64,000 bases of DNA, taken from an uncultured Anaeroplasmataceae bacterium (GTDB taxonomy: Bacteria; Bacillota_I; Bacilli_A; Acholeplasmatales; Anaeroplasmataceae). Shown here piece by piece: positions 33,749 through 35,996 of this stretch (positions are counted from its first letter, which is position 1; every line of letters begins with the position of its first letter). The notes under the pieces were generated by a model, which was not told the origin of the DNA, searched no databases, and saw only the letters and a list, made by a program, of their open reading frames with translations. The stretch is from contig CAKQEA010000004.1 of NCBI GenBank assembly GCA_934229785.1, positions 1 through 64,000 on the forward strand, given 5' to 3'. A program made the translations under genes and the position numbers.

Positions 33749-35377
33749 TTACTTTCTTGGTAATGCTTCTATTACTCTATAAGATAATGTTTTACCATTA
33801 TACTTCTTTTTATTTAAATCACGTAAAAATCTGACAGCCTCATTATTTATTTCAATAAAACTATGCTTTTTGTCAATAATTATTTTACCAAAATGCTCTC
33901 TATGTATCTTAAGCTCATCATGTAAAAAAACAACTAATTGATTGGGTCTAACATTTTCAGTTGAACCAATATTTAATTCTATTACAGATGTTTTTTTAGC
34001 ACTTGAAAATCCACGAGAAGCAACCTTCCCGCCTTTTTTAGGCTGAGTTTTCTTTAAGGATACGGTTTTAATTTCTGGGTATTCTCTTGTAGTATTTTTA
34101 TCAATCATGTCCAAAAGAGTAACTAAAATTGGAATAGGATCACTTGATAGTTTAGAAAGCTTCATAATTAAATTATCATATTTATGATTTGATGCTTGAT
34201 TTTCAATTCCTTCAGTTATTAATTGATACATCGCCTTTTGTTGATGTTTTTCAATTTCCTTAATTGAAGGAATTTCCATTTTTTCAATTTTGTGATGAAT
34301 ATAATCCTCAAGCTCTCTAATTCTTGATTGACTTCTTGAAGTAGCAAGTGTAATTGCAACACCACTTCTTCCCTTACGACCAGTACGACCAATTCGATGA
34401 ACATATATTTCATTTTCATTTGGAATATCAAAATTAACAATTGCTTCTATACCATCAACATCAATACCACGAGCCGCAACATCAGTCGCAATAAGAATCT
34501 TAACACTTGATAATCTAAATGACTGCATAACTCTATCACGTGAAGTTTGCTTTAAATCACCATGAAGTCCATCTGCAGAAAATCCCTGTTGTTGCAAAAA
34601 TAAAACAAGCTCATCAACCATTGCCTTAGTATTAGCAAATATCATAACACTCTTAAATTGATAATAGTCGAGAAGTCTTACTAAAAGATCCTTTTTTGAC
34701 TCCTTCATGCAGTAATATACCTGCTGATCAATTGCATCAACAGTTAACGCTTTATTTTCAATTTTAACCATTACAGGTGAATTCATATACTTCTTACAAA
34801 CATTTTTTATAAATGGTGGGAGAGTTGCTGAAAATAAAGCATTTTGTCTATCAAGCGGCATTGTCTTTAAAATAGTTTCCAAATCCTCCTGAAAACCCAT
34901 TTTAAGCATTTCATCAGCTTCATCTAAAACTAAATACGAAATCTTAGAAAAATCTATTTTTCCCTTATTCATATGGTCAATAATTCTTCCTGGTGTGCCA
35001 ATGATAATTTGTGGCTTACATCTAAGCTCCTTAAATTGCTTTTCATATGATTCGCCACCATAAATTGTAGCAGTTCTAATCTTCTTTAAATTACTAGCTA
35101 ACTTATTAATTTCAACTGAAACCTGTAATGACAATTCTCTTGTAGGACACAAAACTAAAGCCTTAACATTCTTAGAATCCTCATCAATATTTTCAATTAA
35201 AGGAATAGAATATGCAAATGTTTTACCTGTACCTGTTTGGGCTTGTCCTATAACATCCTTACCATCAAGAAGCAAAGGAATAGCCTCTTCTTGAATTGGG
35301 GTTGGAGTTGTAATATCAAGCTTTAGTAAAGCATTTACAACCTCATCTGATATATTTAAACTTTTAAAATCACTCAT
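33749..35377 (-). CDS. DEAD-box RNA helicase with DbpA-type RNA-binding tail
   Basis: ATP-dependent RNA helicase of 542 residues. Q motif TPTPIQ, motif I AQTGTGKT (45-52), PTRELS, DEAD, SAT and HRIGRTGR are all present. The C-terminal 75 residues (VELNIGSTENVRPNQLVV ... HSFIEI) fold like the DbpA/YxiN RNA-binding domain, which in that family targets 23S rRNA helix 92. A role in ribosome assembly or cold adaptation is likely; the rsmD neighbour fits. A GGAGAT site precedes the ATG. A structured RNA gene ends about 60 bases upstream in the same direction. Confidence 0.92.
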   Translation of the reverse strand: MSDFKSLNISDEVVNALLKLDITTPTPIQEEAIPLLLDGKDVIGQAQTGTGKTFAYSIPLIENIDEDSKNVKALVLCPTRELSLQVSVEINKLASNLKKIRTATIYGGESYEKQFKELRCKPQIIIGTPGRIIDHMNKGKIDFSKISYLVLDEADEMLKMGFQEDLETILKTMPLDRQNALFSATLPPFIKNVCKKYMNSPVMVKIENKALTVDAIDQQVYYCMKESKKDLLVRLLDYYQFKSVMIFANTKAMVDELVLFLQQQGFSADGLHGDLKQTSRDRVMQSFRLSSVKILIATDVAARGIDVDGIEAIVNFDIPNENEIYVHRIGRTGRKGRSGVAITLATSRSQSRIRELEDYIHHKIEKMEIPSIKEIEKHQQKAMYQLITEGIENQASNHKYDNLIMKLSKLSSDPIPILVTLLDMIDKNTTREYPEIKTVSLKKTQPKKGGKVASRGFSSAKKTSVIELNIGSTENVRPNQLVVFLHDELKIHREHFGKIIIDKKHSFIEINNEAVRFLRDLNKKKYNGKTLSYRVIEALPRK

Positions 35378-35440: not shown

Positions 35441-35511
35441 AAAGAAAAAGTGGATGTTAATGTGATTACGTCTAAAGCTGGACCTTAAGAATTCACATTA
35501 GTTCAATCCAC
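35441..35511 (-). terminator. Terminator of the structured RNA
   Basis: Long hairpin with GTGGAT / ATCCAC at the base and TAATGTGA / TCACATTA above, followed on the minus strand by TTTTTCTTT. The apical loop (CTTAAGGTCCAGCTTTAG) can fold further. Confidence 0.8.
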
Positions 35512-35671
35512 TAAAATTTTTTATAGTCTAGGAAGGTCGTGAAGAACTTAAGTTCCCACGATGGAAGCCTCTTTTTAGTTCTCGTTAGGGTTCTCAAATT
35601 AAGAGCATCCGCACAGAAAATCTCTCAGCTTCCGTTTAATAATTTTTGAGCTCCACGGCCATCTTCCTAGT
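35441..35671 (-). ncRNA. Structured non-coding RNA, family not recognised
   Basis: About 231 nt with its own signals: an extended -10 box (TGCTAAAAT, 35678-35686) places the start at A35671, and a hairpin followed by TTTTTCTTT ends it near 35441. Domain 1 is closed by CTAGGAAG / CTTCCTAG (35663-35670 with 35528-35535). Inside, TTTGAG at 35593-35598 pairs with CTCAAA at 35645-35650 and extends through GG/CC and CGT/ACG pairs. GCTTCC at 35563-35568 can pair with GGAAGC at 35628-35633, and these two helices cross, so a pseudoknot is predicted. A hairpin TCGTG..CACGA sits at 35537-35561. Domain 2 (35450-35511) has 6- and 8-bp helices. It may be a 6S- or raiA-like RNA, a helicase leader, or new. 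Confidence 0.75.
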
Positions 35672-35677
35672 AATTAT

Positions 35678-35686
35678 ATTTTAGCA
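35678..35686 (-). promoter_or_regulatory. Extended -10 promoter of the structured RNA
   Basis: TGCTAAAAT on the minus strand fits the TGnTATAAT extended -10 class. The -35 region (TTCCTT) is poor. The start falls seven bases on, at the first base before the closing helix of the RNA. Confidence 0.6.
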
Positions 35687-35693
35687 CATCTCA

Positions 35694-35996
35694 TTAAAAA
35701 AAGGAATAGATAATTGAAATTAGAGCACAAGCTATTAAAAGAAAGCCAACAACTATAATTAAACTGTCACCCTTACCATCACCTGAAAATCGGTTTTTAT
35801 TCTTTAAACCCATAGGCATCATCAAAGCAATAATACCTAAGAAAAACAATGATACAGCCATCAAAAAATGCTTAGTATAATAGCTTGGACCATTAAGTAA
35901 ATTCACATCTATAAAATAAAAAGCAACATTAAGTAATAATATTACCATTAACACTGACATTATAATTTTTAAAATTAATTCCTTTTTCTTATTCAT
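35694..35996 (-). CDS. Small membrane protein, unknown
   Basis: A 100-residue protein with three hydrophobic helices (about residues 8-30, 42-62 and 80-100) and a short basic loop KNKNRFSGDGKGD. No family is recognised. It stands between the rplT operon and the structured RNA; its stop lies only eight bases upstream of the RNA's -10 box. Confidence 0.6.
   Translation of the reverse strand: MNKKKELILKIIMSVLMVILLLNVAFYFIDVNLLNGPSYYTKHFLMAVSLFFLGIIALMMPMGLKNKNRFSGDGKGDSLIIVVGFLLIACALISIIYSFF

Follow-up and report, generated by a model that had tools for sequence, protein, structure and literature searches.

A compact RNA gene next to a DEAD-box helicase gene in an uncultured Anaeroplasmataceae bacterium is very probably a divergent 6S RNA

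The window, by which we mean the whole stretch of 64,000 nucleotides that was analysed (positions 1 to 64,000 of contig CAKQEA010000004.1), carries on its minus strand the gene of a small RNA, in which a core of roughly 143 nt (35671-35528) is followed by a terminator hairpin (35512-35449). The core transcript (35528..35671, minus strand) has A35671 as its predicted start and is enclosed by CUAGG...CCUAG (35670-35528). Upstream of the RNA lie infC and rplT, preceded by an L20 leader, as well as a gene for a 100-aa protein. Downstream follows a DEAD-box helicase with a C-terminal DbpA RNA-binding domain (33749..35377, minus strand), a neighbour that lies outside the RNA and whose best NCBIfam models are CshA and DbpA, both under their cut-offs. 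The L20 leader upstream of infC-rplT (37467-37349, minus strand) scores above the Rfam threshold, as do two T-box leaders in the window (20450-20210 and 59682-59473, both minus strand). The 100-aa protein (35694-35996, minus strand) is without a Pfam match, is often encoded ahead of the RNA in relatives and appears membrane-like by eye. The RNA strand has stops in all three frames, and a reading as coding sequence was therefore rejected.

An extended -10 box (TGC-TAAAAT, 35678..35686, minus strand) stands six nucleotides before the predicted start, as had been proposed from the sequence alone; a good -35 element was not seen by eye upstream of the window's RNA. Among relatives, a TA...T hexamer is present 4-9 nt ahead of the closing helix in all 89 loci with enough upstream sequence, and 31% of shuffled upstreams hold one at such spacing. 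TGn precedes the -10-like hexamer in 61 of the 89 testable loci, and a -35 matching in at least four of six positions is found in 80. At the other end of the gene, the closing stem is directly followed by a U run in 56 of 91 loci. A generic promoter and terminator scan recovered neither the RNA's promoter nor any terminator. Its single site (35460-35433, minus strand) lies between the RNA and the helicase, where it could serve the latter; it matches in 10 of 12 positions with a TG before the second hexamer, and shuffles average 1.7 sites, so that as many are expected by chance.

The intrinsic terminator (35441..35512, minus strand) consists of a long-looped hairpin (35512-35449) and a U-rich tail. 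Its folding energy of -17.9 kcal/mol (z -3.5 against shuffles) agrees with the large hairpin and U tract that the sequence-only reading had pointed out. The loop holds a long extra inverted repeat. The accompanying idea of a regulated terminator found no support and was rejected, as 11 printed relatives carry shorter hairpins, by eye without the long loop, and a search of the window for further copies of it gave nothing better than E 0.57.

According to an RNAalifold consensus of 40 sequences with less than 75% identity, the RNA forms a rod of closing stem, P2, apical stem and apical hairpin, and consensus and pair counts together yield the closing stem, central bubble and apical stem of a 6S RNA. 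All positions that follow are on the minus strand. The closing stem P1 joins CUAGGAAG (35663..35670) to CUUCCUAG (35528..35535) and corresponds to covariation helix 1. The long-range helix P2 (covariation helix 2) has the 5' strand CGUGGAGC (35650..35657), which is the probable pRNA template, and the 3' strand GUUCUUCACG (35538..35547), which covariation and energy tests assign to both P2 and a local 3' hairpin, P4. This hairpin (CGUGGGAAC-UUAA-GUUCUUCACG, 35538..35560) and P2 are mutually exclusive, as indicated by the energy tests. UCAAAAAUUAUUAAAC (35634..35649) makes up the 5' flank of the central bubble, as placed by the consensus fold and by alignment with the 6S model. At the foot of the apical stem, GGAAGC (35628..35633) pairs with GCUUCC (35563..35568) on the evidence of covariation, and the apical motif GUGC-GG-AUG-CUC...GAG-AA-CC-CUAA (35585..35614) is based on covariation helices 5 and 6, on the consensus fold and on comparison with canonical 6S.

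Over 90 distinct sequences, 93.8% of cells were paired at 28 pairs and 21 of these pairs changed on both sides (372 cells), which is strong covariation of the kind sought by the proposed compensating-change test, with figures that lean towards the fold because the model to which the sequences were aligned already contained some of the structure; together with the relatedness of the sequences, this overstates the significance of the pairing and of P2/P4. None of 500 shuffles scored as high, and slid partners paired in 36-53% of cells. The closing helix (35670-35663/35535-35528), which had rightly been placed one base after the start, was paired in 97.2% of cells and showed both-side changes in nine of nine pairs, one pair beyond the eight included. 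P2 varies little, with a both-side change in one of five pairs. The sequence-only reading had also proposed two crossing helices. The helix of 35628-35633 with 35563-35568 holds as the base of the apical stem (91.2% paired; five of six pairs changed on both sides), whereas CUCAAA/UUUGAG (35593-35598 with 35645-35650) pairs in only 59-70% of cells and was rejected. Its 3' strand is taken up by a local apical helix, which is paired in 95.9% of cells with three of three pairs covarying, and no pseudoknot is thus needed. The evidence for the fold is comparative, drawn from the aligned sequences, and single-sequence folding says little: z was -2.6 for the 231 nt and -2.35 for the 144-nt core, a value that 6 of 200 shuffles also reached. 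Folding energy alone is no proof, since folding is even more favourable for the opposite strand (z -4.7).

At threshold, no Rfam family was found on the RNA in the window, consistent with the earlier impression that signatures of known families were absent. The 6S model RF00013 did not match in the window even at E<=10, and three unrelated weak matches below threshold in this region were all on the opposite strand. Among 20 short loci of the window's order, RF00013 matched weakly on the RNA strand in four (E 0.034-0.96), with no match at E<=1 in the other 16; in three sets of longer loci it matched 1/5, 1/13 and 1/20, the last at E 3.8e-4 with a 221-nt query. In the alignment of the 221-nt order locus to the 6S model, GUGUGAAUGC...GAAUCCUAA falls on the apical motif that is conserved in 6S. 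6S was the family that recurred across unrelated genomes on the RNA's own strand; PK-SPCSV weakly matched the RNA on the same strand in one genome, and snoZ278 did so in two of the bridge loci described below. The sequence-only reading had further named raiA, and this candidate was rejected with no match to RF03072 at E<=10 in any of eight genomes of the order. Canonical 6S elsewhere in the genome was not detected by RF00013 in five of five close genomes, in a search that also missed a 25-bit cmscan match in one genome (G001), which makes the absence of a second, canonical copy tentative.

The five full-length relatives of the helicase come from MAGs named Anaeroplasma sp. (two), Acholeplasmatales (two) and Erysipelotrichaceae (one), and the RNA is present in all five genomes. 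A covariance model built from six sequences (R1) was run on 160 genomes of the order and matched the RNA in 93 of them. In the scanned loci, direct RF00013 scores of order members remained at or below 27.7 bits against a threshold of 46.4 bits, a gap that is filled by a second covariance model (R2), which was built from 90 RNAs of the window's kind with no canonical 6S in training and matched 117 of the 160 genomes. On the window itself, which is part of the training set, R2 matched 35522-35673 with 147.5 bits. Among 20 listed of the 43 unmatched genomes, 17 are no larger than 0.9 Mb. The genomes of the order in which no match was found, G052-G068 among others, are mostly small (0.3-0.9 Mb). 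The separate model allows such genomes to be read as candidate losses, and the pattern suggests loss with genome reduction. A phage origin was rejected, with no match in a phage collection at E 1e-5 and none in viral contigs for the one exact pattern searched.

A sample of 296 genomes of the class was searched. RF00013 matched 117 of them, and the 35 order members of the sample with an R2 match were not among these. The whole-genome Rfam search is insensitive, having missed a 59.6-bit RF00013 match in G321. Among the R2 matches listed, 61 fell in 58 class genomes in which RF00013 had a match as well, and 58 of these 61 lie on the RF00013 match in the same orientation, with none on the opposite strand and three elsewhere; another 59 genomes with an RF00013 match have no R2 match among those listed. 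With filters off, R2 scored canonical 6S loci directly (best E 3.8e-8). Twenty RNAs that R2 found outside the order (L150-L169) look like 6S and form a bridge. At E<=1, RF00013 matched 14 of them, in every case on the strand given by R2, with 12 below the Rfam threshold and two over the gathering score; the other six had no match at this E value, and 12 of the 20 reached E<=0.006. Thirteen bridge loci were taken with longer flanks. Ten of them share the gene neighbourhood of the window's order, with infC/rplT before the RNA or rsmD after it on the same strand, and three do not. Among seven loci from genomes with RF00013 matches, one (G212) follows infC-rplT, and eight window proteins found no match in 30 canonical 6S loci with flanks of up to 1.5 kb. 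Neighbouring canonical 6S copies were observed at L110 (G225:C113:11954-13392), with six RF00013 matches within about 1.5 kb, and at L105 (G203:C1:982835-984425), with four within 1.6 kb.

The reciprocal matches, the bridge RNAs and the shared neighbourhood point to common descent, and the window's RNA is tied to 6S because sequence, structure and position all link the two. Judged from sequence comparison, we posit with a probability of roughly 0.9 that the RNA is a compact, divergent 6S RNA (SsrS) of about 143 nt that stands alone and has its own extended -10 promoter and terminator.

As described in PMC8876501, 6S RNA mimics an open promoter and binds the housekeeping holoenzyme; it is copied into a pRNA, upon which P2 opens and the RNA is released. 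The same paper reports for E. coli that, upon P2 opening, the freed 3' strand of P2 and the 3' bubble form a hairpin. By analogy, the rod described here would mimic an open promoter, bind the sigma-A RNA polymerase holoenzyme and lower transcription when growth slows. The polymerase would then copy P2 and the 5' flank of the bubble into a short pRNA, probably beginning opposite the CUC/CCC region, and P2 would open as this pRNA is made. The freed 3' strand of P2 could then fold into P4, and the complex would fall apart.

In 40 diverse sequences, the mean energy of P2 was -7.1 kcal/mol with its own strands, -6.3 with swapped strands and -5.0 with a shuffled 3' strand, and that of P4 was -5.9 kcal/mol with its own and -4.8 with swapped strands. 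Permutations were as good in 0 of 5000 cases for P2 and 4 of 5000 for P4, among related sequences whose relatedness was not removed. A 3'-bubble hairpin as in 6S RNAs was found, with P4 at or below -4 kcal/mol in 31 of 40 sequences and own strands beating swapped ones; for P2, the -4 kcal/mol cut gave no separation from shuffles. The overlap of P2 and P4 showed no clear difference from canonical 6S (50% versus 41% of P2 3' bases), in a comparison with 26 canonical 5'/3' pairs that loose anchors had picked out. It is conceivable, though rather unlikely, that the RNA represents a minimal 6S in which P2 and P4, being mutually exclusive and having one strand in common, make up the whole bind-and-release cycle, with pRNA synthesis handing the strand to P4. 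If so, the order would harbour a natural miniaturised 6S system that was lost in its smallest genomes.

Three other explanations were weighed against a 6S RNA. The position of the RNA had raised the option of a cis-acting leader that controls the DEAD-box/DbpA helicase through a regulated terminator, and in a mechanical ORF search the helicase was indeed the first same-strand gene to follow the RNA in 37 of 91 loci, that of the window among them, at a distance of 10-213 nt from the RNA match. In the other 54 loci, however, a different gene comes next, namely rsmD in 11 and others in 43 (by eye often one peptidase-like protein), and in genome G002 (L011/L016) a 115-aa gene separates the RNA from the helicase. 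With this variable downstream gene, the intervening gene, a terminator following the RNA and no long terminator loop in the 11 printed relatives, a helicase leader is hardly credible and was rejected. Because the next gene varies, the -10-like hexamer is present in 89/89 loci and the U run in 56/91, all of which fit a stand-alone 6S gene, the feature is a gene for a short RNA and not a leader, and the stand-alone, 6S-like option of the sequence-only reading is the one that holds. An unrelated new class of RNA with a convergent likeness to 6S would agree with the lack of an Rfam family at threshold and with the failure of RF00013 to match the window even at E<=10, but is made very improbable by the reciprocal matches, the bridge sequences and the common gene neighbourhood.

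The RNA might also descend from 6S and have changed its job, keeping the rod while binding the core polymerase or another partner, and it may then not template pRNAs. Its 5' bubble begins with GUGGAACCC/GUGGAGCUC, where most printed canonical Bacilli have CCGAAC or CCGAC by eye, and its closing stem is shorter. A precedent is Ms1 of the Actinobacteria, which PMC9130861 describes as a structural relative of 6S that binds the core enzyme. However, the bubble and P2 show good conservation within the order, which is what a continuing template role would predict, and R2 spans both groups. We regard such a change of function as improbable and favour a 6S RNA proper.

6S RNA has been described as occurring in nearly all bacteria (PMC8414754), and the literature surveyed, which covers part of what is in print and includes PMC8632094 and PMC3831623, contained no report of it in the window's order; absence from print is not claimed. 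RNAs of the window's type offer a naturally short 6S for structural work, and the bridge RNAs could be used to widen RF00013.

Among known systems, raiA RNA (RF03072) is likewise structured and of similar size (209 model positions), but differs in that none of the eight order genomes matched its model. Ms1, likened here by its published description, is a 6S-related RNA that acts on RNA polymerase, as proposed for the window's RNA, and differs in phylum and in binding the core enzyme. PMC8876501 gives about 200 nt for 6S RNA, against 143 nt for the window's core, and reports that truncated forms of 6S-1 still go through the whole cycle in vitro, though at lower affinity. The layout of P4 appears to be like that of the release hairpin of E. 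coli 6S, and canonical Bacilli 6S RNAs also show partial overlap. Compared with the Bacilli type of RF00013, the window's RNA differs in its core length (about 143 nt versus 164-201 in the canonical matches printed), its closing stem of 8-9 bp, another 5' bubble motif and scores below the Rfam threshold. It shares with this type the closing stem, the central bubble, the apical stem, the apical motif, the 3'-bubble hairpin and the reciprocal matches. The apical motif of a canonical 6S such as L116, GUGU-GA-AUG-CCC...GGG-AA-UC-CUAA, has its counterpart in GUGC-GG-AUG-CUC...GAG-AA-CC-CUAA of the window. The RNA is very probably of a known kind, 6S RNA, and would constitute a new branch of it that Rfam does not recognise here.
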